Source: Polaribacter sp. Hel1_33_78
GTDB taxonomy: Bacteria > Bacteroidota > Bacteroidia > Flavobacteriales > Flavobacteriaceae
Direction: 5' to 3'
Assembly: GCF_900106075.1 (NCBI RefSeq)
Contig: NZ_LT629794.1
Coordinates: forward strand, 2,088,001-2,152,000
Length of the DNA: 64,000 nucleotides
A program made the translations under genes and the position numbers. Numbering within the stretch: position 1 is the first letter of the stretch; every line of letters begins with the position of its first letter. Shown here in pieces: positions 9,787 through 32,461 of this stretch. The notes beneath the pieces are model-generated. The model saw only the letters and a list, made by a program, of their open reading frames with translations. It had not been told where the DNA came from and ran no database searches.

Positions 9787-10719
9787 TTAATACTTTAATT
9801 TTTCATGCTTATCCCATAGTCCCCAATACGCTCCAACAACACCTTCTGCTCCTACTTTCCATGATTCATCAAAAGAAGAGAAATAAAACATATCTATATC
9901 GTCCTTTGAAGACCAGGCTTGAGCATTAATAAAATACTTCATGGCATTTTCTTCAGATGAATGTGCGCCTCTTAAACTTTCTCCTTTACTTGGCCAACCA
10001 GATTCTGTAATAATTACTTTTTTACCATTTGCCGCATGTGCTGCTTGTCCATACATTTGCTGCATGTGGTTTAGAGAATGCTCTATACTACAGCCTTCCC
10101 AATATGGGTAGCAATTTGCTAAAATAACATCAGAAACTTCTACTAACTCTGGATGCTTTGAAAATTCATAATACGCATCCACATACCCAACTGGCATACC
10201 CGGTAATGCTTCTTTTACTCTTTTTATGTAGCCTAATAATTGCTCTAATGATAAATCATTTCTGTATAAAACTTCGTTACCAACTGCCGCTATATCTACA
10301 CATCCTTCTTTTGCAAGTTGAATAAGTCCTTCTATTTCCGACTCATTCATTTCTAAATCGTCACTTAACCATGCACCAACCATGTTTTTCAAACCGTGCT
10401 TATGCGCCATTCTAGGTATATGCTCATTACCTTCTATACAAGAAAAAGAACGAACCCATTTTGTATAAGGTTTTATAATTTTAATTCTTCGTTCTACTTG
10501 CTCGATCGTAATAACATCTCCAGGTTTCTGTTGATCTTCATACATGCTAAAACAAAGACCGTGCATACCATTTTCTAAGGTATCGTGCCAAAGTTTTTTC
10601 AAATCCTCTTCTGAAGAATATTCATTAAAATCTACTCCTTCATGAGATTTAAAATCCTTTTCTAATTTTATAAAACTTTCTTTACTACTTGCGTAATACT
10701 GCTCTTCTCTAAATGACAT
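9787..10719 (-). CDS. GH17 beta-1,3-glucanase without signal peptide
   Basis: The 310-residue protein is a complete GH17 TIM barrel. The acid/base is expected at Glu149 in DIAAVGNEVLYR and the nucleophile at Glu239 in KVIITESGWPS, both classic GH17 motifs; WVRSFSC and NCYPYWEG fit barrel strands. GH17 enzymes cut beta-1,3-glucan and some transglycosylate. The N-terminus (MSFREEQYYASSKES) is charged with no hydrophobic stretch or lipobox, so the enzyme should be cytoplasmic, unlike the lipoprotein GH17 three genes upstream. It is the last gene of a unit, 24 bases after the transporter gene, which fits intracellular hydrolysis or remodelling of imported oligosaccharides. Family certain; location inferred. 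Confidence 0.93.
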   Translation of the reverse strand: MSFREEQYYASSKESFIKLEKDFKSHEGVDFNEYSSEEDLKKLWHDTLENGMHGLCFSMYEDQQKPGDVITIEQVERRIKIIKPYTKWVRSFSCIEGNEHIPRMAHKHGLKNMVGAWLSDDLEMNESEIEGLIQLAKEGCVDIAAVGNEVLYRNDLSLEQLLGYIKRVKEALPGMPVGYVDAYYEFSKHPELVEVSDVILANCYPYWEGCSIEHSLNHMQQMYGQAAHAANGKKVIITESGWPSKGESLRGAHSSEENAMKYFINAQAWSSKDDIDMFYFSSFDESWKVGAEGVVGAYWGLWDKHEKLKY

Positions 10720-10743
10720 TTTAATTTATTTTTTTTTATTTAT

Positions 10744-15122: not shown

Positions 15123-16925
15123 TTAATATTTTAAACCATACCCCAAAGGATATAATGGTTGTATAGTTTTATCCCAAAAATTGGGTCCGTACTTTCCTTT
15201 GTAATCTTCTTCTGATTTTGGCCAAGAATGCGGTAATTTTCCAGAAAAATTAAAATCTCCAAAAATAATTTCGGCAACTCCATCTCCTTCTGAACCTAAT
15301 AACCAAGTTGCCATAAATGCGTCAGACGTTTCTATTTGGTCTGTTACAACCAAAGGTCTTCCCGAAACTAACACCACAATTGTTTTTATTCCTTTTTCTG
15401 AATATGTTTTTATGTAGTTTTGATGTTCTTCTGTTAAAGTTAATTTTCTTGTATTTGATTCATGCCCAATATCTCCGAAAAATTCTGCGTACGGAGTTTC
15501 TCCAACAACGATAATAGCAATATCGGCATCAAAATGATTTTGAGTTGGTTCTTTATCATACACAACATTTCCTTTTGCATGTTTTTTAATTCCTTCTAAA
15601 ATGGTTGTTGCTCCTTTATAATTTTCTTTGGTTCCTTGCCAGTTAACAGTCCATCCTCCAGATTGCAAACCACTGCTATTTGCATGCTCTCCAACAACTA
15701 CAATTTTCTTAGTTTCTTTATCTAAAGGCAAGACTTTATTCTTGTTTTTTAAAAGTACTATAGATTCTCTGACTGCCTGTCGTGCAACATTTCTATGTTT
15801 TTTAATTCCTATTTTAGAAACTAACGTTGAATCTGGAAATGGGTTTTCAAATAAACCTAATCTAAATTTTTGACGTAAAATTCTTTTCACTGCGTCATCA
15901 ATTCTAGACATCGCAATTGTATCTGTTTCTACACCTCTTTTTACTCCTTTTTGAAAATCTTCTAAATCACCATCAACAGCCATAATCATGTCTATTCCAG
16001 CATTTATGATATCATTTTTACCAAAACGGGAATACCCTTTCCAATCAGAAACTACAATGCCGTCAAAATTCATATCAGCTTTTAAAACATCAGTTATTAA
16101 AGACTTATGCGCATGCATAGAAATACCAGAAACTGTATTAAATGATGCCATAACTGCACCAACATTTTCCTTAACGGCCATTCTGTAAGGCGCCAATAAA
16201 CGTTCTTTAATTCCAGCTCGAGATAAAGAAGTATTACCACCTTCTACACCAAAATCCGTTGCACCATCGCCTACGAAATGTTTGGCGGTTGCCATTACCG
16301 TTTTTGGGTCTGCTAAATTTCCCTGATGACCTTTAACAGAGGCTCTTGTTAGTTTTTCTGTTAGTTCTGTACTTTCTGAGAATGCTTCGTATACTCTTCC
16401 CCACTTTTCATTAAAAGGAATTGCAACGCAAGGTGAAAACACCCAATTAAAACCCGTTGCCTGACTTTCTAAAGCGGTAATTTCCGCAATTTCTTGAACT
16501 AAGTTTTCATTTCCTGTTGCTCCTAAACCTACGTTGTGTGGAAAAATAGTTGCTCCTTCAAAAGTATTTTGACCATGAACAGCATCTACAGCAAATAATA
16601 AAGGAATACCCAATCTTGTAGAAAGCGCCTTCTTTTGAAGTTTTATAAACCTCTTTTGCCACCCTAAAGCGGTTTTTCCCGGATTTGGGCCTTGCGTATG
16701 AATGATTGACCCTATAAATTTTTCAGTAACATGCTTATCAGCAGACTCTTCAAAATGTCTTATTTGTGACATTTGTCCGATTTTCTCTTCTAAAGTCATT
16801 AACTCTAAAAGAGCCTCCACTTTTTGTTCTATTTGAGCTTTACTACTTACTTTCATTTCATTATTGCAACCAATACCTATCAACAAAAAACAACAAATTA
16901 GGTATATTATATTACGGTTTTTCAT
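15123..16925 (-). CDS. GH3 beta-glucosidase, lipoprotein
   Basis: ATG 16925 is chosen over TTG 16928. The 600-residue protein begins MKNRNIIYLICCFLLIGIGC, lipobox Cys20. It has the two-domain GH3 core: an N-terminal barrel with MTLEEKIGQMSQ, LFAVDAVHGQNTF and ATAKHFVGDG, then the nucleophile Asp294 in GIVVSDWKGYSR. The alpha/beta sandwich has VVVGEHANSSGLQSGGWTV and the GETPYAEFFGD segment. No fibronectin-III C-terminal domain is present; the protein ends shortly after FSGKLPHSWP and YPLGYGLKY. This domain order is typical of exo-acting beta-1,3/1,4-glucosidases of the laminarin-active type. It would release glucose from oligosaccharides in the periplasm. The stop of the phosphorylase gene is 5 bases upstream, so the two are tightly coupled. 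Confidence 0.94.
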   Translation of the reverse strand: MKNRNIIYLICCFLLIGIGCNNEMKVSSKAQIEQKVEALLELMTLEEKIGQMSQIRHFEESADKHVTEKFIGSIIHTQGPNPGKTALGWQKRFIKLQKKALSTRLGIPLLFAVDAVHGQNTFEGATIFPHNVGLGATGNENLVQEIAEITALESQATGFNWVFSPCVAIPFNEKWGRVYEAFSESTELTEKLTRASVKGHQGNLADPKTVMATAKHFVGDGATDFGVEGGNTSLSRAGIKERLLAPYRMAVKENVGAVMASFNTVSGISMHAHKSLITDVLKADMNFDGIVVSDWKGYSRFGKNDIINAGIDMIMAVDGDLEDFQKGVKRGVETDTIAMSRIDDAVKRILRQKFRLGLFENPFPDSTLVSKIGIKKHRNVARQAVRESIVLLKNKNKVLPLDKETKKIVVVGEHANSSGLQSGGWTVNWQGTKENYKGATTILEGIKKHAKGNVVYDKEPTQNHFDADIAIIVVGETPYAEFFGDIGHESNTRKLTLTEEHQNYIKTYSEKGIKTIVVLVSGRPLVVTDQIETSDAFMATWLLGSEGDGVAEIIFGDFNFSGKLPHSWPKSEEDYKGKYGPNFWDKTIQPLYPLGYGLKY

Positions 16926-16930
16926 CAACT

Positions 16931-19900
16931 TTACTTAATAATTGATACTTTTATGTGGTTAATTTTATTTGATCTATCAAACATTTCCGAGCTTGTGCTT
17001 CCATCTAAACTTAAACTATCAAAAACTGTATTTGATTCATCGTTAAAAATAACTTCAACGCTGTTATCGTTAGATAAACTATAAATGATTGGAACTTGAC
17101 AATACGTAAAACACAGCTGATTTTTATCAATATTTAATTGCTGTTTTTCGCCGTTAATATTTATATACTCAAATACTTTTGGTTCATTTAAAAACTCAGA
17201 AGTTTTTAATAACCTTGGTTTAAAAATAATTTTTCCTTTTTCAACAAAAACACCTAACTCGCCAAATCTACTTAGTAAATCTTCTTTTACTTGGCCAGTC
17301 ATCCCTGGCTGTTGAGCACCTTTTGTTGCTGGAGTATGTGAATAGGCATCTGTTGGAAAAGCACCATATAATTCTGGTGATTTATGAACTCCAACCCCCG
17401 CATTTATTTCATAATAATGGTCAAATAATTTACCAATAACAACTTCACTTTCACCGGAGTTTACTGCTAATAAACAGTTTTCTTGGACTGCTAATAATAG
17501 CTTAGAAACCATGTGCCAATAAATAGAACCCAAACCTTCATAACCAAAGAAAGTTCCTGAACGTCCTGTAAAAGATTTATGATCAAAAATTTCCTCGAAA
17601 ATATCTAAAACAGCATCCGATTCCTTTATTACTAATTCTTTATAGTCTTCTGGCAAACTTGCTAAAGCTTCTTTTACACTATTTGCATTGTTAAAATTTC
17701 CGTTAAAATGATAGTTCCCTAAAACGTCTTTTTCTATTAATTGTTTGTTTTCTGCAGCTACTAACTCTTTTAATAATTTAGAAGTTTCAACTTTTTCTGA
17801 TGGAATATTATTTTTCTTGGTAAATCTTGGTAAGTTTTTATTTGGATATAAAATATAACTGTATTGGTCCGGTCTAAACAATGCCGAGGCTTTTAATCCA
17901 TCTAACAAATCTAAAGCTTGCGTTGGAGTTAAGTATCCAGAACTTAAAGCTGCTACTTGACCTTCTAACATTTCCGATAGGTATGAAATGGAAACTTCAT
18001 CCGTATTTTCTATCGTCATTAAATTATATGCATGATACATATTATCCGAACGTTTGTTTGCTCTAATACTATGCTCTAAATAGTCTTTTGTGATTGTAAA
18101 AAAATGTAATAAAGATGCTTTAGTTAGTGCTGATTTTTTAGCCGAAAATCCGTTTTTATAGATAAACTCTCTATATTTACTTGCAGGATTCCCTAATCCA
18201 TCTAAAACTGTTTTTCTATCTTTATCTGATACTTTACTCTCTAAAATGGTAGTATTTCCGTCTAAGGTTTTTAAAATATCATTAAATAAAACTGATACCT
18301 CATCAGAAATTTGAATATTATTTACATCAGAATTTTCTAAAATACCCTCAAAGAAATTAATAAATCTTCTTAAGTAATTTAACGTTACCATAGAAACCCC
18401 ATTACCAACTAACGCGTTGTTTGCATCATTCCATTCTGGTCTTTGTGTATTTAACCAAATTCCACCTTCAGGAATAAAGTTTGAAACTTTTGCCAAAACC
18501 GTAACTAATAACTTTTCAATAAGGTTTACTTTATAAACATTTTTATTTTTATCAGTTAGTAAAGATCCATCAGCACCCATTATCGCTCTTCTCTCATCAA
18601 TTTCAGCATTTAATTGGTGATCGAAATCAATCGTATCTTTTGGATTCTTTAAAATATCTGAATACGGTTTTATTTTATATGGCACATTAGCATATACAAA
18701 AATATCATCATTGAATAATTCTGCAAGTTTAGATGGATAATGTTTCTCTATAAACTCTAAAAATTTAAGTAAATAAATTATTTGGTGATCTCCCCAATAA
18801 CCTATATAAGACCAAGGATCATTCTCTTCTATCACTTCCCAATCAAAACCACCTTTTGTAACTCTGTAAGGATTGTAACCCTCAAATGTAGTTGCATTCA
18901 AAAATTTATGAATCATACTCTCTATAAATTGAGGATATGAATAGGCAAGAACCTCCCAATTTTGAAAAATATCTCTCCAGTTTCCTTCGTAATCTAGAAT
19001 TTTAGAGCCATCAATTTCACTTTTTGTATTGATAGAAAATTTGTTCCAAGGTCTACTTGGATCTCCATGCCTTCTACTAAATTTTAATGGTAAATATTCT
19101 AAGCACAATCTTTTAAAATCTTTGTCTGCATCATTTTCTGCTAAATTTTTAATGAAATTCAATGTGAATTTCTCTGGTAAGCTAGCTAAAAATTCTTTTT
19201 TTGCAACAAATAATTGTTTGTTTGCTTTTGATAAATAGGTAATAAAATCTTGTTTTTCAATTGAGTAATTATCATCAAAAATACCACCTCTCATAATATT
19301 GAAAAGCGTATTTGAAAAATGTCTTGTATTAATTAATGGATCATTAGAAAGTTGCAAACCATCTGAAGCTGCAGCCAATTTTACTAATTTTTTTGTTCCT
19401 TCCTCTATGCTAACTTGTAAAAGTTCGTCTAAGCTAGCATTATTTTTAATCATTTCTGAAATATAAGTAACATCAGAAACTGTTTGATTTACATTCACAA
19501 CTTGCAACCATCTTTTTTCTTGATTGGCAGGTAAGTTGATATTAGCATTTAAGAAGTAAGCACCTTTTTCTGCTTTCATATCCACTTCTTGCTCCAGCTT
19601 CATGCCTCTTCTAAAATTGTTTAATTGTAAAGAAGATAATAAGTATTTAGGGTTTTCTAATCCACGAGACCAAACAACATTTGCTTTTAAAGCTTCACTC
19701 GGTTCTGCTTTATCCACGATAATAGCACTTAATGCATAAATACCCAAACCTGAGTCTACTTCAAGTTCACATTTTTTATAGGCATCTACCAAGTTACTTC
19801 TAATCCCTTGCAAATCTGAACTTACACCAAAAGGTAAAATATCCTGAAATCCGTCTAGAATAGAAATATCTAAATCTAAATCAGAATTATTTATCAGTGT

Positions 19901-20386
19901 CGCTTTTCTAACAAAACCAAATTCATCACTAGAATTCCATTGATATTTGAATGTAAGTCCTAAATCTTGATTGATTTCTTCAAAAATTACTTTATTTCCA
20001 AATTCATTTTTGTAAAGATTTCTAACTATTGAGTAAATACCTGCTTGTCTTTCCGAAAATGGCTCCCATATAAGTGTTTTGCCATTTTTTTGTATTCTAA
20101 AAATCGATTTACAACCAGTAGTTTCTGCTAATTCAGTTATTTTATCATCTGTATAATAAGGAAAAATAGCGGATTCAGCATTTTTTCTACCTGCTGTTAA
20201 ACCTCCATTACTTGAGATAAACATCCAATGATTTGAGTCTGAAATAATACTCATAAAAAAAGGACGCATTTTATGACTATTAGAAATCTTATAATAAGAT
20301 TCATTTTCATAATTAACTAACTCTCCAGTAATTTCCTTATCACTTTTAGAGGTTAAATTGTCTTCGTAAGAAACAGTTTTACTCAT
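16931..20386 (-). CDS. GH149-like beta-1,3-oligoglucan phosphorylase (GH94/149/161 group)
   Basis: The 1151-residue protein has no signal peptide. It has an N-terminal beta-sandwich (NHWMFISSNGGLTAGR), then an (alpha/alpha)6 barrel. The likely general-acid Asp654 is in NTQRPEWNDANNALVGNG. C-terminal phosphorylase motifs are FFGYEGLGSIYWHMVSKL (W957-H958), LYGAFPTDAYSHTPATKG and GAQQPGMTGQ (1023-1032). GH94 enzymes are near 800 residues; the greater length and these motifs suggest GH149 (phosphorolysis of beta-1,3-glucan oligosaccharides to glucose-1-phosphate), with GH161 the alternative. It heads a unit that also encodes GH3, GH17, GH30 and a GPH transporter, and should act in the cytoplasm on imported laminari-oligosaccharides. 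The phosphorylase clan is confident; the family number is less so. Confidence 0.88.
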   Translation of the reverse strand: MSKTVSYEDNLTSKSDKEITGELVNYENESYYKISNSHKMRPFFMSIISDSNHWMFISSNGGLTAGRKNAESAIFPYYTDDKITELAETTGCKSIFRIQKNGKTLIWEPFSERQAGIYSIVRNLYKNEFGNKVIFEEINQDLGLTFKYQWNSSDEFGFVRKATLINNSDLDLDISILDGFQDILPFGVSSDLQGIRSNLVDAYKKCELEVDSGLGIYALSAIIVDKAEPSEALKANVVWSRGLENPKYLLSSLQLNNFRRGMKLEQEVDMKAEKGAYFLNANINLPANQEKRWLQVVNVNQTVSDVTYISEMIKNNASLDELLQVSIEEGTKKLVKLAAASDGLQLSNDPLINTRHFSNTLFNIMRGGIFDDNYSIEKQDFITYLSKANKQLFVAKKEFLASLPEKFTLNFIKNLAENDADKDFKRLCLEYLPLKFSRRHGDPSRPWNKFSINTKSEIDGSKILDYEGNWRDIFQNWEVLAYSYPQFIESMIHKFLNATTFEGYNPYRVTKGGFDWEVIEENDPWSYIGYWGDHQIIYLLKFLEFIEKHYPSKLAELFNDDIFVYANVPYKIKPYSDILKNPKDTIDFDHQLNAEIDERRAIMGADGSLLTDKNKNVYKVNLIEKLLVTVLAKVSNFIPEGGIWLNTQRPEWNDANNALVGNGVSMVTLNYLRRFINFFEGILENSDVNNIQISDEVSVLFNDILKTLDGNTTILESKVSDKDRKTVLDGLGNPASKYREFIYKNGFSAKKSALTKASLLHFFTITKDYLEHSIRANKRSDNMYHAYNLMTIENTDEVSISYLSEMLEGQVAALSSGYLTPTQALDLLDGLKASALFRPDQYSYILYPNKNLPRFTKKNNIPSEKVETSKLLKELVAAENKQLIEKDVLGNYHFNGNFNNANSVKEALASLPEDYKELVIKESDAVLDIFEEIFDHKSFTGRSGTFFGYEGLGSIYWHMVSKLLLAVQENCLLAVNSGESEVVIGKLFDHYYEINAGVGVHKSPELYGAFPTDAYSHTPATKGAQQPGMTGQVKEDLLSRFGELGVFVEKGKIIFKPRLLKTSEFLNEPKVFEYININGEKQQLNIDKNQLCFTYCQVPIIYSLSNDNSVEVIFNDESNTVFDSLSLDGSTSSEMFDRSNKINHIKVSIIK

Positions 20387-21506: not shown

Positions 21507-22928
21507 TTATTTATTAAAATATATATTATCAACATACATATCAGTTACAGTTGCGTCTGAAACAAAAACAACTTGTGCTAAATTAGATGTACCTGTTAAA
21601 CTAGAGAGACTAGAAAGAGGTATATCTATACCTACCCATTCTCCTGCTACTAAATCTGATGAAGAGTATTTAATTTCTGCAGCAGAATCGTCTCCAGTGC
21701 CAAAAGTATTATCCGGTCCAATATCTTGTAATTTTACTGTAACAAAATCCCCAGAATCTAATTCATTTATAACTTGTATGTCTACATGAAAATTAGTCAT
21801 TTGAGAAACGTCTATTGTAGGCTTTGTAAATTGAATACCAACAAAATTCAGTTCAGAATATTTTATAATATTATCTCCATTTATTGTAATGTCATTCTGT
21901 CCTAAGGTTGTTTGATAAGGTGCCCAATAACCATTATAATATTCTACTGGTTGATTTGTATAAGCATCGCTAAAGATTGAAATTACATTACTTGCATTTA
22001 CTGTTGGTGTTGCAGCTACCACAAATTGACCTAGAGAGGTAATGGATAGAGAACCTGAAACTTCAACTCCATTAAGAGTTGCTGTAATTTCTGCTGTTCC
22101 CTCGCCTACGATAGACACTAAACCTGATCTAGTTACTGTGGCAACAGAAACATCTGTTGTAGAGAACTTAAAATAATGCCCGCCAGCAGTAACCGTTTGA
22201 TTAACTCCTGTTGCTAAATTATATGTTTGTGTAAGACCTGTTATTTGAATACGTCCTCCAATAAAAGAAGTTTCAATTTTATCTTCACCATTAAACATTT
22301 TTGGTTTTGCCTGTGCAATAGTACCTAACTTTTCATACTTTAATTCGTCTACCCAAAAAGTATAACCTACTTCGTTACCTGCAGGTCCTTCTGGTCCTTC
22401 TGCATACCAGAACATTCCTTGTTCTTGGGTTAATTTTGATGCGTCAGGAATTGGAATAATATATTTAACCCAATTCGTTGATAATTGAAGACCTTGATTA
22501 CTAACCTGAAATTTGTTTCCAAAGAAATCTTGTCCAAAGCCTATGTCATTAATTACAGCTGATTTTGATGACTTTGCATAAAAGGTTAAAGCATCGTACC
22601 CAGATAAATCTCTTCCTCCATTATCATCCCGAAATATTGCACCAGCATATGCACCTCGAAGATCTCCAACATTTGGAACGTCAAACCTCATAGATGATGA
22701 ACCTGAATATTTAACTTCTGTATCCACAGAAAAAGCTTCTTGCTGAGAATCTGCATAGGGATAATATTCTAATCCACCACTAAAGCCGTCTATATAAACT
22801 TCTGCACTATCCGAAAATGTAGCTAAAACTACATCGTCCGAAAGTTCTCTTTCACAACTTATGACTGTTACGAATAATAGCCCTAAAAGGAAAAAAGTTT
22901 TTGTATAATTATATTTTATATTTTTCAT
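21507..22928 (-). CDS. surface lipoprotein with Ig-like domain and two carbohydrate-binding-like modules
   Basis: The 473-residue protein has a lipobox Cys25 (LLFVTVISCERE). An N-terminal jelly-roll-like module spans about 35-205 (GSSSMRFDVPN, GYDALTFYAKSSKSA, WVKYIIPIP, TFWVDELKYEKLG). A Big_2-type bacterial Ig domain spans about 215-297 (VATVTRSGLVSIVGEGTAEI). A C-terminal module, about 300-473, has DVSQMTNFHVDIQVI and MYVDNIYFNK and clearly resembles residues 200-348 of the CBM/T9SS protein at 7254-8558. No catalytic motif is present. Between the hybrid TIM-barrel protein and GH16, it is best seen as a surface glycan-binding protein. Which module binds glucan cannot be read from sequence. 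Confidence 0.85.
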   Translation of the reverse strand: MKNIKYNYTKTFFLLGLLFVTVISCERELSDDVVLATFSDSAEVYIDGFSGGLEYYPYADSQQEAFSVDTEVKYSGSSSMRFDVPNVGDLRGAYAGAIFRDDNGGRDLSGYDALTFYAKSSKSAVINDIGFGQDFFGNKFQVSNQGLQLSTNWVKYIIPIPDASKLTQEQGMFWYAEGPEGPAGNEVGYTFWVDELKYEKLGTIAQAKPKMFNGEDKIETSFIGGRIQITGLTQTYNLATGVNQTVTAGGHYFKFSTTDVSVATVTRSGLVSIVGEGTAEITATLNGVEVSGSLSITSLGQFVVAATPTVNASNVISIFSDAYTNQPVEYYNGYWAPYQTTLGQNDITINGDNIIKYSELNFVGIQFTKPTIDVSQMTNFHVDIQVINELDSGDFVTVKLQDIGPDNTFGTGDDSAAEIKYSSSDLVAGEWVGIDIPLSSLSSLTGTSNLAQVVFVSDATVTDMYVDNIYFNK

Positions 22929-22935
22929 AAGTTAT

Positions 22936-25900
22936 TTATTTTCCAATGTTGATATGAATGTATGTTCTAATCTCCCATTCCGAACCATTATCAAATCCTA
23001 CAGGACTGATTGTTGGTGCAGTTGCAAAAGCTGAAGATGTTTGATTTGGTGAGTATCTAGGAGAGTATTGATCTAATGATCTCCAAGTTCCTCTTAAACC
23101 AACTTTGGTGCCCGGTAAAAGCAACCAATTTGGTTTCCCTACAGATGTAGATAAATCTAACATGAATTGTGCTGGGTATGTTAAATTAAAATCTCTGTGA
23201 TAATCAAAAGGCCCCCAATCGTTAAATTTAGCCATTGCAATAACTTTCAATTTATTATAAATCATTCTAACATCACCTCCTGCTCTTGTAATTAATCTTT
23301 CATCACTACCATTAGATTGTCCGTTACCGTAATATAAGTTTGCTATAAAACCAAATTCTGGATTTATTTTAGATACAATTCTAGAATTCACTTCCCATAA
23401 ATCTTCAGCTGGTGCTGAATTTGGAAATGCAAATGAACTACGATTTGCTAAAAAACCAATTGCTGCATCTTGCGTTGTTGGTAAATGACGATATACAAAA
23501 CCAAGGTTCATTGCAAATTTTGCATCTTCTGCTCTATCATTATTAAACTCATACATCCAAGTTCCTGGTGTTGGATCAAATGTTAACAAAAGTTCTCCGG
23601 CAGTGGTTTCTCTATTTCCTCTAACAGCAAATGGATCCAATACAACATTTCTTAATCTTCCCGGAGCATTTACATCATTTGGCATTGCAGCAACTAATGG
23701 TTTTTGCCATAAGAAGTTTGGTGCTATTTCGAATTTACCGAAATTATACGCAAAACCAGTTAAAAAGTTAGATTGATTTCCGCTTCCATTATCTTTTAAT
23801 TTCCATCCTGTAAACGTTTGTGTTTGATCAAAACCACCATTAGCAACTAAGCCCATAACGGCACCTTGTGCATACCAATTAAAAGTTCCTTTTTGAAAAG
23901 TTATTTTCGCTTTACCTCCCCAATTATCTGAAGACTTAATTTTATCAACAACAACATTTGAAAATCCATTTTGGTATCTAATATCTTGATACTCTCTACC
24001 ATTTAAAGGCTGTCCTCCCCAGATTGCACCTAATTGCATTCCAAAATTTGCTCCTTTTCTTTCCATAGCCAAAGTGACTCTCTTTGTTTTCGGTAACGGG
24101 ATAAATCCTGATGTTTGAGCTTCAGTATTACTAGCTATATCCTCATGATAGATACCTGTAAAATTATAGTGACCTAATTGTTTACTATATTTTAATAAAA
24201 CGGCTGGGTTTGCTCCCCACCATAACTGCGGTCCAAATGCTGCTTTTAAACCCTCTAAAGCACCTTTACCATCAACTTCAATTCCTAAAATCTCCCCATT
24301 ATATATGTCTAAATTTGGACCATAATATGATTCCCGGTATAAGCCAAAAAAATCGCCTTCATATCCCCAATGATAATGACCAGTCCTATAAAAACCTCTC
24401 ATCTCAAAATCTTCAGCATTCCACTCAAATGAGGCGTTATAGACACGCAATCTATTATTATCATTAACAGGCATAGCCTCATAACCACCATTACTATTTA
24501 CACTTGCAAATGAAACAGTTCTTCCTACATTTTCATAAAAAATATCATCTATTGGATTTCCAGCAATATTTCCTAATATATTAAAGTTTACTTCTGCCCT
24601 CATGTTTGCAGAAGGTTGCCCTTGAACTCCCACATAATAAGATTGCATGTGATCAAAACCTGTTTTGTCTGGATATTCACCAGATGTACCATCTAAACCA
24701 TCAGTTGTTAGTAACGATCCTCCTGTATTAAAAGTGGTGAATTCTGCCCTTAAATTACTTAATTTAATTTTTTCATTACCTCCTAAAGCAGCTTTATCTC
24801 CTCTCGCTCTTAAAACAGCATCCATTAATTGGATATTATTAAAATGATTTGTTACCGAGGTAGCAGAGACTCCAAGTCCATAAGGATTTATACTATGAGC
24901 TTGTTTTAAGGCATAATATGCTGCCCTTGGGTATAATGTATATAATCCTGCAGAATTTGTTGGTCCTTTTGCACAGATACCAAACCATTCTTCATTCATA
25001 TTATTACTCCCATTTTTAGTATCTAAATAATAACCTCCATTAGACCAAGATGCTCCATTATCATGAACATCCAAATTTTCAGTTTGACCTAATTTCCACC
25101 AGCCATCACTAAATTGAAATGTAAATCCTCCAATAGAATTATTCGCTTTCCCTAAACCTGCGGCATTTTGATAAATCTCCTTCCAATTTTCTAGCATAAA
25201 AAATGCCTGCATTTTTTGGTCTTCTTGATTCGTTAAAGCATTAAAAGCATCCGCCCCAAATTCTGTAAACATTATCGGTTTATTCAACTCCTTACTAGCT
25301 CTTTCAAAAGCATCTCCAAAAGATTTACCTCGATACATATTTGTGCCGTAAATATCTACATCTGGACATTCCTCTGCAACAATATCTGAAAACAAAAAAT
25401 CACCATTACAAATAGCAACCGGATGAGAACCATCTAAGTTTTTCATTAAGACGGCAGCCTCATTCATCAATTTATACATTGGTCTACCTCTTTTTTCACC
25501 AACAGCCTTCTTTTGCTCCTCTCCCTCAGGAAAATCTTCAGTTTCTGCCCCAGACCAAAAAAGACCATAATTATTTTCATTCCCTAATAAGAATAAAAGT
25601 AATCCTGGAGTTCCTTTGTAAGTATTGGCCATCTCCTTTGCATCCGATAATAATTGGCTTTTAGTTTCTGCCTCCCTGTAATCCGTGACAGGTGTCCAAA
25701 CACCATTAATCGTTAACCCATAGCGCCCAAAAGAGTGATTTAACATTGTATAAATGCCAAAATTTTCATGGATATAAGAAATCCACTTTGGCTGAATACC
25801 AGTATAAACCCGAATCGTGTTTACACCCATATTTTTTAGCAATCCCATTTCCGCATCCAGAGCACTTTTGATAACGTCCTCAGGTTGCTTCCATAAACTG

Positions 25901-26082
25901 TATGCATAATTTGTACCAATTGGAACATAATCCCAATTCATACCATTAATCATAAAATCTTCTCCATTAACCACTAACTTCATTCCTTGTTCATTACTAA
26001 CAACAGAAACTTTATCTGTTTTTTGAGCAAAGACATTCATTGCGAAAAAGAAAAGTAACAATCTTAAAAAAATGTTCTTCAT
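22936..26082 (-). CDS. clan GH-A-like TIM-barrel glycosidase fused to an outer-membrane beta-barrel
   Basis: One uninterrupted 1048-residue frame. Residues 1-20 are a signal peptide (LLLFFFAMNVFAQ). Residues ~30-400 resemble GH2/GH5-type barrels: LVVNGEDFMINGMNWDYVPI, MGVNTIRVYTG, a probable acid/base Glu169 in FLLGNENNYGLFW, DIYGTNMYRG, and a probable nucleophile Glu274 in PIMFTEFGADAF. From ~430 to the end the sequence switches to alternating amphipathic strands with periplasmic turns (NASFEWNAEDFEMRGFYRTG, NLGFVYRHLP, KVIAMAKFNDWG), ending in a strand (EIRTYIHINIGK) like an outer-membrane barrel. It is 7 bases upstream of the Ig lipoprotein and is preceded by a terminator and a 391-base gap. 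No GH family number can be assigned from sequence reading; GH2-like is the nearest. Activity on the PUL's glucan is inferred. Confidence 0.82.
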   Translation of the reverse strand: MKNIFLRLLLFFFAMNVFAQKTDKVSVVSNEQGMKLVVNGEDFMINGMNWDYVPIGTNYAYSLWKQPEDVIKSALDAEMGLLKNMGVNTIRVYTGIQPKWISYIHENFGIYTMLNHSFGRYGLTINGVWTPVTDYREAETKSQLLSDAKEMANTYKGTPGLLLFLLGNENNYGLFWSGAETEDFPEGEEQKKAVGEKRGRPMYKLMNEAAVLMKNLDGSHPVAICNGDFLFSDIVAEECPDVDIYGTNMYRGKSFGDAFERASKELNKPIMFTEFGADAFNALTNQEDQKMQAFFMLENWKEIYQNAAGLGKANNSIGGFTFQFSDGWWKLGQTENLDVHDNGASWSNGGYYLDTKNGSNNMNEEWFGICAKGPTNSAGLYTLYPRAAYYALKQAHSINPYGLGVSATSVTNHFNNIQLMDAVLRARGDKAALGGNEKIKLSNLRAEFTTFNTGGSLLTTDGLDGTSGEYPDKTGFDHMQSYYVGVQGQPSANMRAEVNFNILGNIAGNPIDDIFYENVGRTVSFASVNSNGGYEAMPVNDNNRLRVYNASFEWNAEDFEMRGFYRTGHYHWGYEGDFFGLYRESYYGPNLDIYNGEILGIEVDGKGALEGLKAAFGPQLWWGANPAVLLKYSKQLGHYNFTGIYHEDIASNTEAQTSGFIPLPKTKRVTLAMERKGANFGMQLGAIWGGQPLNGREYQDIRYQNGFSNVVVDKIKSSDNWGGKAKITFQKGTFNWYAQGAVMGLVANGGFDQTQTFTGWKLKDNGSGNQSNFLTGFAYNFGKFEIAPNFLWQKPLVAAMPNDVNAPGRLRNVVLDPFAVRGNRETTAGELLLTFDPTPGTWMYEFNNDRAEDAKFAMNLGFVYRHLPTTQDAAIGFLANRSSFAFPNSAPAEDLWEVNSRIVSKINPEFGFIANLYYGNGQSNGSDERLITRAGGDVRMIYNKLKVIAMAKFNDWGPFDYHRDFNLTYPAQFMLDLSTSVGKPNWLLLPGTKVGLRGTWRSLDQYSPRYSPNQTSSAFATAPTISPVGFDNGSEWEIRTYIHINIGK

Positions 26083-26400: not shown

Positions 26401-26441
26401 AAATAAAAAGCCGGTATTAAATAAACTTAATACCGGCTTTT
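26401..26441 (-). terminator. hairpin terminator after the duplicated-domain lipoprotein
   Basis: Perfect 15-bp GC-containing stem (GCCGG core), 26406-26420 with 26427-26441, and a 6-base loop. It is followed on the minus strand by T-rich sequence. It lies 33 bases after the stop at 26474 and probably attenuates or ends the susC-susD-lipoprotein transcript. Confidence 0.85.
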
Positions 26442-26473: not shown

Positions 26474-27841
26474 TTATTGTCTTACTAATTTGTATTTCCA
26501 ATAACCACCGCCTGCAACTTCAATATCTATTTCTAAAGTATCACCATCCAAATCAGCCATATATGTTATTGAATCTGGCGCTTCTGCTGGAGATGCCAAC
26601 TCAGCCAAATTAATAACTTTTGCCAAACCTAAATAAGCTCCTCTACCATCTAGTGTTATTGAACCAGCAGTTGCATCATACGTGTATGTTGCTGCTCCGC
26701 TGCCGTCATGAGGAAATACTGGAACACCACAATCATCAGGGTCCGCACCTTGCCAAGCTTCTAACCAAGTGTCTGCTCCTAAAACATTATTAAAAGTTCC
26801 GTCTGCATTGAACACATATTCATCGTCAAATAAACATGCTCTTGTTGTTACATCATCCGAAGAACTAGAAAACCAAGATACATCATCTAATGCCGGTCCA
26901 ACTCCGAATGCTCCAGATTCTGGCGCTAATTTCCATGTACCTTCTAAAGAAGGTGCTGCATCTCTAACTAATTTATAAGACCAGTAACCACCGCCTGCAA
27001 CTTCAATATCTATTTCTAAAGTATCACCATCTAAAGCAGCGATATACGTTATTGAATCTGGAGCACCAGCTGGAGACTCCAACTCAGCCAAATTAATAAC
27101 TTTTGCTAAACCTAAATAAGCTCCTCTACCATCTAGTGTTATCGAACCTGAAGTAGCATCATACGTGTATGTTGCTGCTCCGCTTCCGTCATGCGGAAAT
27201 ACTGGTGCACCACAATCATCAGGATCAGCACCTTGCCAAGCTTCTAACCAAGTGTCAGCTCCTAAAACATTCTGAAAAGTTCCATCCGCATTAAATACAT
27301 ATTCATCATCAAACAAACATGCTCTTGTTGTTACATCATCCGCAGAACTAGAAAACCAAGATACATCATTCAATGCTGGACCAACTCCGAAAGCTCCAGA
27401 CTCCGGCGCTAATCTCCAAGTACCGGCTACAGCACTGGTATCACCTCCACCGCCTCCGCCTGAAGGAGGAGCTACTACGAAAGTAACTGTATGTTCTTTA
27501 GTAATTGAAACATCCTGTGCTCCTTCTAAAGAAGCTGTTACTGTAATTGTATATGTTACTGTTTCTTCTGGATAATCATAAGTAACCATTGGGGCACTTG
27601 TTTGAAATACATCTGTATCTGAATCAGCTGTAGCGCCAAAGTCAACAGTATATAAAATGTTTCCGTTTCCAAAAGCGGTAGTTGGCACAACTCCTGCTTT
27701 TGTTCCTTCTGCATTTAATGTTGCTACTACGAAATCTAAACCAGTGATTTCAGCTATGTCATCATCATTATTTTCACAAGATACGGTGACACCTAATAAT
27801 AATAGTAGTACTAAATAAGATCCTCTTTTTAATAAATTCAT
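26474..27841 (-). CDS. PUL surface lipoprotein with PKD-like domain and tandemly duplicated ~155-residue domain
   Basis: ATG 27841 is chosen over the TTG at 27862; it gives MNLLKRGSYLVLLLLLGVTVSC with lipobox Cys22 and 455 residues. After a PKD-like beta domain (about 30-125; TYTITVTASLEGAQDVSI) and a Gly linker (SGGGGGGD) come two near-identical domains. Each begins GTW(R/K)LAPESGAFGVGPAL and ends AGGGYW(S/K)YKLVR. The copies are spaced 161 residues apart and are about 90% identical by eye. They are rich in Trp, Asp and paired Cys (TRACLFDDEY, DPDDCG), suggesting a lipocalin-like beta fold. Position directly after susD is that of SusE/F-type surface glycan-binding lipoproteins. I do not recognise a named family for the repeat; binding of glucan is inference. 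Confidence 0.82.
   Translation of the reverse strand: MNLLKRGSYLVLLLLLGVTVSCENNDDDIAEITGLDFVVATLNAEGTKAGVVPTTAFGNGNILYTVDFGATADSDTDVFQTSAPMVTYDYPEETVTYTITVTASLEGAQDVSITKEHTVTFVVAPPSGGGGGGDTSAVAGTWRLAPESGAFGVGPALNDVSWFSSSADDVTTRACLFDDEYVFNADGTFQNVLGADTWLEAWQGADPDDCGAPVFPHDGSGAATYTYDATSGSITLDGRGAYLGLAKVINLAELESPAGAPDSITYIAALDGDTLEIDIEVAGGGYWSYKLVRDAAPSLEGTWKLAPESGAFGVGPALDDVSWFSSSSDDVTTRACLFDDEYVFNADGTFNNVLGADTWLEAWQGADPDDCGVPVFPHDGSGAATYTYDATAGSITLDGRGAYLGLAKVINLAELASPAEAPDSITYMADLDGDTLEIDIEVAGGGYWKYKLVRQ
26477..27424 (-). repeat. tandem direct repeat of 483-bp period within the lipoprotein gene
   Basis: Copies at about 26477-26941 and 26960-27424 are in the same orientation and offset by exactly 483 bases (161 codons). 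For instance the ccaccgcctgcaacttcaat block occurs at 26505 and again at 26988. The copies are largely identical at the DNA level, pointing to a recent in-frame duplication or ongoing homogenisation. Confidence 0.93.
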
Positions 27842-27874
27842 TTTGTTTTGTTTTTTATTCAACTTTTATATTTT

Positions 27875-29431
27875 TTAATAATTTGGGTTCTGACCCCATT
27901 TTTCTACCGCATTTGCTAATTGTAATTCCACTAAAGGTATCGGAAAAATTCCGTGTTTATTTTCTATGTAATTTACCGTATTAAATTCTGCTGGTTTGCT
28001 TGCATTAAATGCATCAAATGCACTTTTAGCTTTACCTGTTCTAACCAAATCGAAAAAACGATGACCTTCACCGGCTAACTCTTTACGTCTTTCTGTATAA
28101 ATTGCTTCTAGCAAAGAACCTTCAGCAGCAGTATAATCTTGACTATTATTACCATATGCTCTTTCTCTAACTTGGTTTAAATAAGATTCCCCGTTTGAAC
28201 CACCACTCTGAACTTCTGCCTCTGCAGCCATTAATAATACATCTGCTAAACGAATAGCTCTATAATTATTAGGATGATTTAATGGATCTGACCCCACTCT
28301 ATCATCAGCTTTGCGCGGTAAATATTTTTTATTAAAAAACCCAGTATCATCTCTACCTTGAGAATAGATATCCTGTTGATCTCTTAAATCAAGAAAGGTA
28401 ACATCTCTTCTTAAATCGTTCGCGTCAAACAAATCGTACAACTGTTGTGTTGGTAAATTAAATCCCCAACCTGATCTATATTCTGTGCCATCATATGGTG
28501 ATCTTGGTCCATTGTATTGAACGAAGTACGAACCTTCAGAACAAATAATACACCCCCATCCAGCAGCTTCAACTCCTGTATATTGGATTTCAAAAACAGC
28601 TTCAGAGCCATTCTCTCCCGTACTTTCGAATAAGTTTAAATAATTATCTCCTTGAACTAAACTATAATTTGCGTTGTTCGCTACTAATCCAAGTTGATTA
28701 GCAGCTTCTGCAAATTTGGAGTTATCAAATGTACCATGATATAAATATACTTTACCCAATAATGCTTGAGCAGCACCTTTTGTGATTTTATATGCCTCCG
28801 TTTGAGATGAAGCAGGTAATTTCGTAATGGCTTCCTTTAAATCCTCTTCTATTAAACTATAGACATCTGCGATACTACCAACTCTATTAACGTCAAACTC
28901 TTGTCCAAATAAAATTCTTTTGTCGACCATTCTATTTACACCATTTCTTTCTTCAAAACTCAATGGAACATCCCCAAAAAACTTTGTCAATTCAAATGTA
29001 AAATAAGCTCTTAAAAAATATGCTTGTGCTATAATTGCATCTCTACCTGCAAATTCTGTTTTTTCTTTAAACTCTAAAACATAATTAGCTCTATTAATTC
29101 CAGCATACATTAACTGCCATACTTCTCTTAACTGATTATTATCGGCAGGAGTATGAATCATTGAATTGATATTCTGCAGTGTTGGTTGATCATAATTAAA
29201 TGCATCTCCACCAGCAATAATATCATCCGAAGCAACTACACTTATTAAAACATTCTGAAATGTAGCCTGCAATAAATCATAAGCTCCTAAAAGAGCACTT
29301 TCGTATTCTTCCTCAGAATTAAAGTAATCTTCTGCTTCAACCCCTATAGGATCTACATCCACAAAATCATCACATGCTGAAAAAGTTATTAGTATTACTA
29401 AAAAATACTGTATTATTTTTATATTCTTCAT
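27875..29431 (-). CDS. SusD/RagB-family glycan-binding lipoprotein
   Basis: The 518-residue protein has a lipobox Cys20 (LVILITFSACDD). SusD hallmarks are the early VDVDPIGVEAEDYFNSEEEYE, the TPR-like AIIAQAYFLRAYFTFELTKFFGDVPL, YRAIRLADVLLMAAEAEVQ, the late ERRKELAGEGHRFFDLVRTG, and the NKHGIFPIPLVELQLA ending. SusD proteins cap the SusC channel on the outer face and hold the glycan during import. The gene is 6 bases after susC and 33 bases before the duplicated-domain lipoprotein. Aromatic residues in the variable loops (YWG-type patches) cannot be assigned to a specific sugar. The family is certain; beta-1,3-glucan as ligand follows from the enzymes around it. Confidence 0.97.
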   Translation of the reverse strand: MKNIKIIQYFLVILITFSACDDFVDVDPIGVEAEDYFNSEEEYESALLGAYDLLQATFQNVLISVVASDDIIAGGDAFNYDQPTLQNINSMIHTPADNNQLREVWQLMYAGINRANYVLEFKEKTEFAGRDAIIAQAYFLRAYFTFELTKFFGDVPLSFEERNGVNRMVDKRILFGQEFDVNRVGSIADVYSLIEEDLKEAITKLPASSQTEAYKITKGAAQALLGKVYLYHGTFDNSKFAEAANQLGLVANNANYSLVQGDNYLNLFESTGENGSEAVFEIQYTGVEAAGWGCIICSEGSYFVQYNGPRSPYDGTEYRSGWGFNLPTQQLYDLFDANDLRRDVTFLDLRDQQDIYSQGRDDTGFFNKKYLPRKADDRVGSDPLNHPNNYRAIRLADVLLMAAEAEVQSGGSNGESYLNQVRERAYGNNSQDYTAAEGSLLEAIYTERRKELAGEGHRFFDLVRTGKAKSAFDAFNASKPAEFNTVNYIENKHGIFPIPLVELQLANAVEKWGQNPNY

Positions 29432-29437
29432 CTTTTA

Positions 29438-32400
29438 TTAAAAATTTAAGTTAACACCTAACAAATAAGAACTAGCAACTGGATAAAATCCTTTATCTAC
29501 ACCTGCTCCAATAGGAGAGCCAGAACTTGCTGAAGGATCATATCCTTTATAATCTGTAATTGTAAATAAATTATTTCCTGTAAGATATACTCTTATTTTG
29601 TTGATTCCTGAACCTTTTAAACTGTCTTCTTGAATCGTATACCCTACTTGTATATTTTGTAAACGAACGAAAGAAGCGTCTTCTACAAAGAAGTCAGAAA
29701 AATTATCTGTATTTATAGATGCTCCAGAAAGCGCTCTTGGAACGGTATTACTAGTACCAGTACCTTGCCATCTATCTAACATATAATCACCTCTATTTGC
29801 AAATAAATCTTTACGCTCATAGTCCCTAACCATATCATTCCCTATAGAGGCAAATGCATTTGCACTAAAGTCTAAGTTTTTGTATGAAAAGCCTACATTG
29901 AAACCCATTGTTATATCCGCAATTGGATCTCCTATATACGTTTTGTCATCATCGCTTATCATCCCATCTCCATTCGTGTCTACGAATTTTAAATCTCCAG
30001 GACCTGCTCCTAAATGATATGTACCTTCCGATGCATTTGCATCTAAAGCATCAATTTCTGCTTGTGTTTGATACAAACCGTCTGTTTGAAAACCATGAAA
30101 ATAACCCATCGGGAAACCTGCTTCCATTCTAGATGTATTAATACCTAAACCAACTCCAAAATCTCCACCAACTTCAAAACCATTATCACTTGAAACAAAA
30201 AGTACTTCGTTATCTATAGTGGTAAAATTGAAACTCATATTAAATTTAAAATCTTCAGAAAAACTGTCATTATAGTCAATTTTAAATTCTATTCCTTTAT
30301 TCTCTACTGTTCCTGCATTTTTAACAGGAGTAGAAGCACCGGGTGCATAAGGACCAATTAAACCTGAAACCTGCGGAGCAAGCAATAAATCTTCAGTTCT
30401 TTTCGAAAAAGCATCTACAGAAAGTTTGATTTTTCTATCTAAAAAACTAGCATCGAAACCAATATTAGCAGATTTTTGTTTTTCCCATCTAATATCTGGA
30501 TTTCCAATTTTACCGATTGCTACTCCGTAAAGTAAATCATCTTGAGTTACTTCATTATTTGATGAATAAACTCCTTCTCCATTTAGTAATGAAACAAATG
30601 CTCCACCTGGAATCTTATCATTACCAATAACACCATAACTTGCTCTAAGCTTTAATGTATTAATAATTTTACTATCTTGTAAAAATGGTTCATCCGAAAC
30701 ATTCCAACCAACAGAGGCTGATGGGAAATAACCAAATTTATTATTTGGACCAAAACTAGTTGAGCCATCTCTACGCAATACTGCGGATAGTAAGTATTTA
30801 CCTTTATAGCTATATTGTAATCTCGTAAAAATTGAAGATAAACGACTATCGAAAAAGCCTGCACCCTTGTCAATTTCACCTTGAATAACTCTAGGTGCTA
30901 ACAAAGTACCATCTAAACTAAACCCATAAAATTGTTCTCCCGTAGTTTTAAATATAGAAGTACCTAATAAAACGGTTAAATCATGAACTTCGTTAAATGT
31001 ATTTGTGTAGTTAATATAGTTGTCCCAAGTATAATCATCATAAATATCAGAAAAATCTGTAGTAAATTCTTGAGTTCTATTTGCAGATTTCCCTGGACCA
31101 TAATCAGCAATAGGACTAAATGAATCATAAAGCACAGTTGCATGGTTTATTTGAAACTTAGAGCTTGCCGTAAAATTTTTCCAGAACGAATAATCTAATC
31201 CTATAGTTGCACTATATTTATCAATTCTAGTGGTATTACTATTATTTGCAATTTGAGCCAATGGATTTATAATTTCAATTTGTGAAATATCATCAACAGT
31301 TGTAAAATCACCATTCTCATCTCTGATCGCTAAATCTGGATTCACGTTTACTGCACTATATAAAACCGAACCAATACCTCCTTCTGGTAAATTATTTTTT
31401 TCTGAATTTGTAAATAATCCAGTTGTGGATAATTTTAAATTATCTAAAATATCATAATTAAAACCTATTCTTGCGGTAGACCTTGTAAAATTAGACTTCC
31501 CTAAACCAACGATACCATCTTGATCCAAGTGGGATACCCCAAAAGTATAAGCTGCTTTTTTAGTTCCACCACTCGCACTAAAGTTAACACTTGAAATAAT
31601 CGCGTCACTAAAAACTTCATCTTGCCAATCAGTACCTTTATTAGGATATACAAAAAACCTTGTTTGATCTCCTGCATCATTCACATAAAGTGCAAAATCT
31701 TTTGGATTTAATAAATCGATTTTTTTACTTGTAGATTGTATACCTGTATATGCATCTAACTGGAATTTTAACTCAGATTCTTTTCTACCAGTTTTAGTTG
31801 TAATTAAAACTACTCCATTTGCTGCACGAACACCATAAATACCCGCTGTAGCATCTTTTAAAACATTGATACTTTTAATATCGTTAGGATTTAAAACTGA
31901 CAAATCTGAAATAACATTACCATCCACTAAAATAAGTGGACTACTATCTCCATTTGTTGAAACCCCTCTAATTCTAATATTAGATCCACTACCTGGAGAA
32001 CCAGAGGCAGATGTAATATTAACCCCAGCAATTTGACCTTGTAAAGCTTGCTCAACTCTAGTTGGGTTAAGCTTCTCAATTGCTTTAGAATCTAATACAG
32101 ATACTGCACCAGTAACTTCCTTCTTCTTTTGAGTTCCATAACCAACAACTACAATCTCATCAAGAGATTCTGCTGACTCTTCCAGAAAAACATTAATTTC
32201 AGTAGAATTAACAACTACTTCTTTAGGTTTCATACCTAAATAATTAAATACTAAGATTGATCCTACCTTTACATCTGAAAGTTTAAAGACACCATCAAAA
32301 TCAGTTTCGGCACCAACAAAAGTACCTTTAATAACAACACTAACTCCTGGCAAAGTCTCTCCAGAGTTTGCGTCTTTTACAACACCTTTTACGTTTAATG

Positions 32401-32461
32401 TTTGGGCCGAAAGACCAAAACTGCAAAACATAAAAAGTAGTAATGTAATCATTTTTCTCAT
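29438..32461 (-). CDS. SusC/RagA-family TonB-dependent outer-membrane transporter
   Basis: The 1007-residue protein has a signal peptide (MRKMITLLLFMFCSFGLSAQ). A carboxypeptidase-regulatory-like domain spans about 22-100 (VKGVVKDANSGETLPGVSVV, DFDGVFKLSDV). Then come the TonB-box-like ESLDEIVVVGYGTQKKKEV, a plug domain (about 110-220; VEQALQGQIAGVNI, IRIRGVSTNGDSSPLILVDG, NVLKDATAGIYGVRAANGVV), and a long 22-strand-type barrel ending in SSYLLGVNLNF, whose terminal Phe is the barrel-assembly signal. It forms the import channel with the adjacent SusD. It is the first gene of the susCD unit, with a 212-base gap to the regulator gene upstream. Substrate by context is laminarin-type glucan oligosaccharide. 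Confidence 0.97.
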   Translation of the reverse strand: MRKMITLLLFMFCSFGLSAQTLNVKGVVKDANSGETLPGVSVVIKGTFVGAETDFDGVFKLSDVKVGSILVFNYLGMKPKEVVVNSTEINVFLEESAESLDEIVVVGYGTQKKKEVTGAVSVLDSKAIEKLNPTRVEQALQGQIAGVNITSASGSPGSGSNIRIRGVSTNGDSSPLILVDGNVISDLSVLNPNDIKSINVLKDATAGIYGVRAANGVVLITTKTGRKESELKFQLDAYTGIQSTSKKIDLLNPKDFALYVNDAGDQTRFFVYPNKGTDWQDEVFSDAIISSVNFSASGGTKKAAYTFGVSHLDQDGIVGLGKSNFTRSTARIGFNYDILDNLKLSTTGLFTNSEKNNLPEGGIGSVLYSAVNVNPDLAIRDENGDFTTVDDISQIEIINPLAQIANNSNTTRIDKYSATIGLDYSFWKNFTASSKFQINHATVLYDSFSPIADYGPGKSANRTQEFTTDFSDIYDDYTWDNYINYTNTFNEVHDLTVLLGTSIFKTTGEQFYGFSLDGTLLAPRVIQGEIDKGAGFFDSRLSSIFTRLQYSYKGKYLLSAVLRRDGSTSFGPNNKFGYFPSASVGWNVSDEPFLQDSKIINTLKLRASYGVIGNDKIPGGAFVSLLNGEGVYSSNNEVTQDDLLYGVAIGKIGNPDIRWEKQKSANIGFDASFLDRKIKLSVDAFSKRTEDLLLAPQVSGLIGPYAPGASTPVKNAGTVENKGIEFKIDYNDSFSEDFKFNMSFNFTTIDNEVLFVSSDNGFEVGGDFGVGLGINTSRMEAGFPMGYFHGFQTDGLYQTQAEIDALDANASEGTYHLGAGPGDLKFVDTNGDGMISDDDKTYIGDPIADITMGFNVGFSYKNLDFSANAFASIGNDMVRDYERKDLFANRGDYMLDRWQGTGTSNTVPRALSGASINTDNFSDFFVEDASFVRLQNIQVGYTIQEDSLKGSGINKIRVYLTGNNLFTITDYKGYDPSASSGSPIGAGVDKGFYPVASSYLLGVNLNF

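Follow-up and report, generated by a model that had tools for sequence, protein, structure and literature searches.

A Glycosidase-Barrel Fusion in Laminarin Loci of Bacteroidota and Its Possible Part in Glucan Uptake

Much of the carbon stored in the ocean is in laminarin, which Bacteroidota, by the usual account, take up by means of SusC/SusD and TonB. The SusC barrel has 22 strands, the barrels of the PapC and FimD ushers have 24, and classical and type Vd autotransporters combine an N-terminal enzyme with a C-terminal barrel of 12 or 16 strands. The stretch analyzed here (the window; 64,000 nucleotides of Polaribacter sp. Hel1_33_78, contig NZ_LT629794.1) carries a laminarin locus in which one gene encodes a glycoside hydrolase (GH) joined to a predicted outer-membrane β-barrel. 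This two-domain protein is a conserved, unusual enzyme-pore fusion. On balance, we lean toward a bifunctional outer-membrane laminarin (β-1,3-glucan) protein whose barrel, together with a neighboring lipoprotein (LP473) and a GH16 enzyme, would form an alternative glucan-uptake module. If true, this would be a new way of taking up laminarin, suggested by gene neighborhoods, with the fusion in place of the usual sugar importer.

The gene seems to have been catalogued earlier as "GH2" or "GH0," as far as the accessible parts of the papers go. A Muricauda laminarin locus is described there as having a "GH2 β-glycosidase" beside GH16, GH149, GH17, GH30, and MFS genes (PMC13188888); it very likely belongs to the fusion family because one of the strains studied, 2012CJ35-5, is that of our locus L076. 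The main text of that paper contains neither "TonB" nor "outer membrane," and "SusC" occurs once, in a reference title. The portion available of another study reports expressed "GH149-GH0-GH16_3" loci (PMC10108472), and we infer that this GH0 is the same family. In Formosa, according to the sections at hand, loci are laminarin-induced and the GH16 protein FORMB_24690 is produced only on laminarin (PMC6246565). The order in L017, from a metagenome-assembled genome of Formosa sp. Hel1_33_131 (fusion, LP473, GH16, x, GH149, GH17), fits tags 24670-24720, so that the fusion would be FORMB_24670. Two further papers, each available in part, describe laminarin polysaccharide utilization locus (PUL) variants without naming a GH-barrel protein (PMC6298971) and the presence of GH2 in certain laminarin PULs with a SusC/D pair (PMC11345257). 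Within the accessible text that the literature search covered, we found no mention of an outer-membrane barrel joined to a GH; a preliminary description of the window had likewise known of no characterized enzyme with this domain order.

Two predicted domains in one chain

The fusion gene is an uninterrupted frame of 1048 residues on the minus strand (22936-26082) that starts with ATG. The single continuous polypeptide and the N-terminal signal peptide reported in the preliminary description were both recovered; the peptide (...NVFAQ) is helical at residues 2-18 in the model and, by sequence, has no Cys and so no lipobox. Relatives are encoded in at least 591 stretches of genome contigs, the best 80 of which align along almost the entire query at 65-75% identity. 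Full-length relatives are numerous enough to reject a frame fusion or an assembly artifact, and it is practically certain that GH and barrel are joined in one chain.

The catalytic half is almost certainly a clan GH-A glycosidase. The only Pfam match in the protein, PF02836 (GH2 TIM domain; residues 71-286, scoring 21.5 bits where the cut-off is 21), is marginal by itself, and the NCBIfam scan of the protein gave no match; the clan assignment is backed by profile and fold searches. The domain has the TIM barrel of the clan, with one predicted catalytic Glu after β4, preceded by Asn, and another after β7. Strands 4 and 7 of the AlphaFold model span residues 161-166 and 270-274, with E169 and E274 at their ends, the predicted counterparts of the usual catalytic places in the clan. 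These are the residues that the preliminary description had picked out, and neither is misplaced in the predicted barrel. Both are invariant: in the 110-row alignment A1, Glu is found in all 67 rows that cover position 169 and in all 79 that cover position 274. The nearest GH folds include β-1,3-glucanases of GH157 and GH158, level with GH2; the rows listed for GH157/GH158 have 17-21% identity to the fusion GH (19-21% for GH158), and a GH158 profile match (E 1e-9) extends over part of the domain only. In GH158, the catalytic Glu residues follow strands 4 and 7, and BuGH158 has an immunoglobulin-like C-terminal domain (PMC7157763). No such domain is evident among the listed elements of the fusion model. 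GH2, the database name, is questionable: PF02836 exceeds its cut-off by only 0.5 bits, no further GH2 domain is listed, and GH2 folds tie with those of GH157/158.

The substrate is likely to be β-1,3-glucan. We regard it as highly improbable that the fusion has a different glucan as its substrate, or that it exports or remodels one as a transglycosylase of the cell's own polysaccharide. The locus is degradative (GH16, GH149, GH3, GH17, GH30, MFS), there is no glycan synthase among the scanned neighbors, and the Formosa loci with related enzymes are laminarin-induced, at least in the accessible text (PMC6246565). These points outweigh a GH72 glucanosyltransferase Pfam match that lies above the cut-off in two of five relatives scanned (P0211 and P0234) and below it in two more, the GH72 entries among the precomputed domains of many standalone relatives, and the fact that ushers and AlgE, among the nearest folds of the other half, are export pores.

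The C-terminal half is very probably an outer-membrane barrel, judged from structure prediction. Two separate AlphaFold models, of the whole protein and of the barrel alone (residues 439-1048; pTM 0.80), have 24 long antiparallel strands, in line with the ~600 residues of barrel strands anticipated earlier. A soluble β-sandwich stack, the competing possibility for this half, is absent from both. The run of VIA on the whole model covered mainly residues 16-417, and the barrel was therefore run separately; its nearest folds were the PapC/FimD ushers, then other membrane barrels (AlgE among the nearest). The barrel half of the window's protein has no Pfam match and no PDB match in the profile search. 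Other members (alignment A3) gave weak Pfam matches to eight families, the best being Glyco_hydro_cc in 6 of 42, which we attribute to rows still holding GH sequence or to chance. In the prediction, the strands have alternating faces, with long loops after odd strands and short turns after even ones, as in outer-membrane barrels with long outer loops and short periplasmic turns. Conservation is strong in the lumen and in four outer loops. It is higher for lumen-facing than for lipid-facing residues, as would suit a barrel that works as a channel, a function that we favor with some reserve. It is not a SusC-type TonB-dependent transporter by domain content: neither the PF07715 plug nor TIGR04056 matches the fusion, and both match the true SusC of the window.

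Distribution and gene neighborhood

The protein is no one-off; it belongs to a widespread family in Flavobacteriaceae and other Bacteroidota. Matches occur in 38 of 296 genomes of an even phylum sample (long form in 28, of which 27 are in one frame and one is apparently split between two contigs), in 82 of 249 genomes of a family sample (48 near full length, as a count of rows), and in 23 of 59 genomes of a sample of relatives, where long and barrel-less forms both exist within the window's genus. A barrel profile, with at most three candidates scored per genome, matched 33 of the 296 genomes. Near-full barrels in long frames with the fusion GH accounted for 28; the rest were broken or cut-down copies (G235, G119) or covered only the first 64-75 positions, corresponding to GH tail or linker (G104, G123, G242). 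No barrel was found apart from the fusion GH in that search, and a free or otherwise-fused barrel family was rejected. The best 120 of 721 barrel-search matches, not each of them checked, mostly begin inside the GH or linker and seem to come from frames that are cut or split.

Standalone GH proteins of ~420-440 residues are present on long contigs (P0200, P0211, P0234; 74-75% identity). They end near the GH/barrel boundary, and many standalones, these included, retain a version of the linker (401-438) and then stop; the closest standalone matches (79-100%) include short-contig pieces that may have been cut. A quick 86-row tree nests the standalones in the fused radiation with six changes, at least three of them forced by starred branches, and tree counts alone do not distinguish gain from loss of the barrel. 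One of 13 barrel-less loci searched (L112) has a barrel remnant just past the stop (31% over 52 columns, E 0.001), which indicates barrel loss there. In related genomes, the copies of the fusion gene at L127, L111, and L112 are broken or shortened by a frame split or a stop. Some relatives have other C-terminal stretches where the barrel would be: a PF02018 carbohydrate-binding stretch in P0145 and P0157, and an extra stretch in L134/L135. The window's own genome also has a distant GH-domain paralogue (L082, C1:191690-192373) in a 604-residue protein, which adjoins an alpha/beta hydrolase-like gene (by eye).

Gene neighborhoods were compared for 103 fused loci (the 80 closest from genome contigs plus the samples; L081 and L083 were dropped as repeats). 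LP473 is a near-constant partner: among 89 loci with 7.5 kb downstream, LP473 is found in 88, GH16 in 87, and GH149 in 78 (anywhere downstream). A regulator homologue lies upstream in 47 of 82 loci with 7.5 kb on that side. Where at least 7.5 kb was available on both sides (n = 77), a same-strand SusC/SusD homologue was absent in 55 and present in 22. A stricter count used 130 loci, less three near-duplicates (112 fused, 14 barrel-less, 1 split). Here LP473 lay no more than 2.5 kb downstream in 92/101 fused versus 0/11 barrel-less loci, and GH16 lay downstream in 97/101 versus 0/11; SusC/D was upstream in 27/91 versus 8/10. At least two of the nine fused loci scored as lacking LP473 (L005, L099) do have an adjoining homologue. 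The 11 barrel-less loci include a broken fused gene (L111) and two that reach contig ends (L134 and L136, the class of the latter not being assignable).

SusD beyond 7.5 kb was sought by whole-genome profile searches with PF07980. In 23 of the 48 near-full-length family-sample genomes, picked by list place, SusD lies 1.5-3.7 kb upstream in six (G226, G524, G364, G327, G337, G303); among the matches listed, none is within 15 kb of the fusion in the other 17, two of which have it ~19-20 kb away (G412, opposite strand; G496, downstream). These distances indicate that SusC/D either adjoins the fusion or, in most genomes, is absent from the locus. No PF07980 SusD was found genome-wide in 6 of 25 genomes (E 1e-10), nor in 1 of 23 among the matches listed (G378; E 1e-8). 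Five of the six have no PF14322 match, and three (G579, with a locus contig of only 5.8 kb, G066, and G255) have no TIGR04056 match above the cut-off, with weaker matches in all.

Two observations slightly lower the odds of an uptake module that stands in for SusC/D. In 3 of 21 genomes chosen as fused without SusC/D in view (G550, G553, G568), a same-strand SusD occurs 11-15 kb upstream. Within the window's genus, moreover, fusion and SusC/D are mostly found together, as they are in the window: SusC and SusD precede the fusion in five of eight whole fused loci (L117-L123, L126), and two of the other three have SusD 12-15 kb upstream. SusC and SusD also lie upstream in every one of the seven barrel-less loci of the genus (L128-L134, of which L134 is truncated where its contig ends), and in the six with downstream DNA GH149 comes next, without LP473 or a downstream GH16. 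In other genera, barrel-less L105 and L106 have no SusC/D in view. Most likely, the fusion is part of an uptake module that is able to substitute for SusC/D in many genomes and occurs alongside it elsewhere.

The same coexistence would suit a barrel that merely holds the GH at the outer membrane, beside SusC/D and surface proteins, and transports no sugar, as would a lipobox-like Cys in 22 of 117 barrel-less relatives (simple pattern), through which tethering may matter. We find such a scaffold improbable: most fused loci elsewhere have no nearby SusC/D, a lipid anchor is far cheaper than 610 residues, 95 of the 117 standalones have no lipobox by the same pattern, and the lumen and outer loops show strong conservation. 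The fixed-geometry anchor of the preliminary description, taken alone, likewise leaves unexplained the conserved lumen, the loci without SusC/D within ~7.5 kb (55/77), and the fact that barrel and LP473 are missing together.

The locus of the window (Table 1) has the β-1,3-glucan enzymes, transporter, and regulator of a laminarin PUL, and the glucan PUL context proposed earlier holds, with GH16, GH149, GH3, GH17, GH30, and MFS genes present. The minus-strand order is regulator, SusC, SusD, LP462, terminator-like site, fusion, LP473, GH16, GH149, GH3, GH17, GH30, MFS_2, GH17. The terminator-like site (26441-26406) divides SusC-SusD-LP462 from fusion-LP473-GH16, in which the gaps are 7 and 23 nucleotides. 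The 391-nucleotide gap contains no site matching the flavobacterial promoter consensus, a pattern no commoner in the window than by chance. LP462, beside SusD, contains two copies of a ~156-residue unit (143/156 identical), a recent internal duplication; neither LP462 nor LP473 has a PDB sequence match. Next to the locus is a gene (7254-8558, minus strand) for a CBM_4_9 protein that carries a sorting tail for type IX secretion. The 310-residue GH17 and MFS_2 (9787-12255, minus strand) are separate neighboring genes here; the same pair seems to be fused in Formosa, to judge from the available text (PMC6246565).

Table 1. Features of the fusion gene and of the surrounding laminarin locus, in window positions
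Feature	Positions	Strand	Basis
GH-barrel fusion gene, 1048 residues	22936..26082	-	open frame, Pfam, AlphaFold
Signal peptide, residues 1-20, ends ...FAQ, no Cys	26023..26082	-	sequence; helix 2-18 in model
Clan GH-A TIM-barrel glycosidase domain, residues 21-400	24883..26022	-	Pfam, profile search, AlphaFold, fold search
E169, predicted acid/base, end of β4 (LLGNEN)	25576..25578	-	alignment A1, AlphaFold, sequence
E274, predicted nucleophile, end of β7 (TEFG)	25261..25263	-	alignment A1, AlphaFold, sequence
Linker with helix 419-436, residues 401-438	24769..24882	-	AlphaFold, alignments
Predicted 24-stranded outer-membrane barrel, residues 439-1048	22939..24768	-	AlphaFold, fold search, conservation
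LP473 lipoprotein, weak Big_2 match just below cut-off, 7 nucleotides past fusion	21507..22928	-	Pfam, gap measurement
GH16 lipoprotein, 278 residues	20647..21483	-	Pfam
GH149 β-1,3-glucan phosphorylase	16931..20386	-	NCBIfam 1820 bits, cut-off 1150
GH3	15123..16928	-	Pfam, NCBIfam
GH17, 431 residues	13793..15088	-	domain scan
GH30	12286..13782	-	domain scan
MFS_2 sugar transporter	10744..12255	-	domain scan
GH17, 310 residues	9787..10719	-	domain scan
Terminator-like site, 16-pair stem, T-rich tail, shuffle mean 0.0	26406..26441	-	between LP462 and fusion
LP462 lipoprotein of SusC/D unit, internal duplication	26474..27862	-	sequence
SusD	27875..29431	-	Pfam, NCBIfam
SusC/RagA TonB-dependent transporter	29438..32461	-	Pfam, NCBIfam
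Regulator, Y_Y_Y and LuxR-type DNA-binding end, sub-threshold propeller match	32674..35469	-	Pfam

Sidedness and a proposed mechanism

Surface lipoproteins of Bacteroidota have acidic residues after the lipid Cys, according to the part of the source available (PMC5080379). Lipoboxes and net acidity at positions +1 to +6 were scored by a simple pattern, a measure that, we stress, is crude. Mean values were +2.5 for SusD (lipobox in 34/36), +3.7 for LP462 (12/14), +1.9 for GH16 (111/123), and +1.6 for LP473 (86/112), and the acidic signature suggests that GH16 and LP473 are surface-exposed. Values were -1.3 for GH3 (7/22), -0.9 for GH17 (64/89), and -0.2 for GH30 (36/45). Standalone fusion-type GH proteins averaged -0.3 (22/117, with at least one false call by eye and many near-copies among the standalones), and 1 of the 22 had an acidic pair; without the signature, the GH looks periplasmic when alone. 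Only part of the standalones carry a lipobox, and a swap to lipid anchoring upon barrel loss was rejected as a rule. Long loops after odd strands and short turns after even ones place strand 1, and the GH attached to it, on the periplasmic side, in agreement with the standalone proteins. The GH of the fusion is thus likely to be periplasmic. The preliminary description had suggested that the enzyme could cut glucan at the mouth of its own channel; the position at a mouth is retained, and loop pattern and standalone acidity favor the periplasmic over the outer one.

Cutting at the periplasmic mouth is the likelier arrangement unless the GH passes to the outside in the manner of an autotransporter, with helix 419-436 in the lumen, the enzyme outside as a surface laminarinase, and the barrel serving for display and not for uptake. 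The order of enzyme, helix, and C-terminal barrel is that of classical autotransporters, and the helix directly precedes strand 1 in the model. Such a topology is nevertheless unlikely: the fusion has 24 strands, not the 12 of classical autotransporters, and no autotransporter Pfam match (PF03797, the 12-strand translocator); its lipoprotein-like standalone relatives have no acidic surface-export signature; and the strongly conserved lumen, the joint absence of barrel and LP473, and the link to SusC/D suit uptake better.

In the uptake mechanism that we propose, GH16 and LP473 would act at the cell surface, the one trimming laminarin and the other presenting it to a barrel that would be a wide, plug-less glucan channel. 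Chains would cross the barrel and be cut on arrival by the GH at its periplasmic mouth, which would trap the product; periplasmic GH17, GH30, and GH3, the MFS importer, and cytoplasmic GH149 would complete the breakdown. No plug was matched and there is therefore no obvious link to TonB, hence the proposal of trapping by hydrolysis. The module would be equivalent to SusC/SusD plus a surface hydrolase and able to replace them, and several lineages, most of which have SusC/D at the locus, would have kept the GH alone, with barrel and LP473 missing. The fuller version, an importer independent of SusC/D in which the 24-stranded plug-less channel and its own periplasmic glucanase work as a TonB-free hydrolysis ratchet with LP473 as lid or binding lipoprotein, is tentative. 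If loci, and a few genomes, in which no SusD is detected do have a conserved alternative module, such loci would have to be recognized by other features, and the energy supply of uptake would be seen differently. PUL naming that requires susC/D (one such rule appears in the available text of PMC10108472) reduces fused loci without SusC/D to "carbohydrate-active enzyme (CAZyme) clusters." The fusion itself is a directly testable case of an enzyme and an outer-membrane channel in one chain.

Comparison with known systems

Classical and type Vd autotransporters share with the fusion the order of N-terminal enzyme and C-terminal barrel, but it has no match to their Pfam families. The PapC/FimD ushers match across the whole barrel model as outer-membrane barrels; they differ in role, which is unrelated, and identity is 7-10%. 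GH158 and GH157 have the clan GH-A fold, and the LGNE and TEFG motifs of GH158 align with those of the fusion, but the solved chains listed have no membrane barrel. The GH17-transporter fusion of Formosa, as presented in the accessible text, also joins enzyme and transporter in one chain in the same kind of laminarin locus, and its authors knew of no other transporter-CAZyme fusion (PMC6246565); that transporter is apparently an inner-membrane MFS protein, so both fold and membrane differ. SusC/SusD offers the closest parallel in gene arrangement: a barrel gene is followed within a few nucleotides by a lipoprotein gene (6 for SusC-SusD, 7 for fusion-LP473) in a glycan locus under a regulator. 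Unlike SusC/SusD, the fusion has no plug domain match and LP473 has no SusD match, and the fusion carries a catalytic domain on a barrel of, by prediction, 24 strands.

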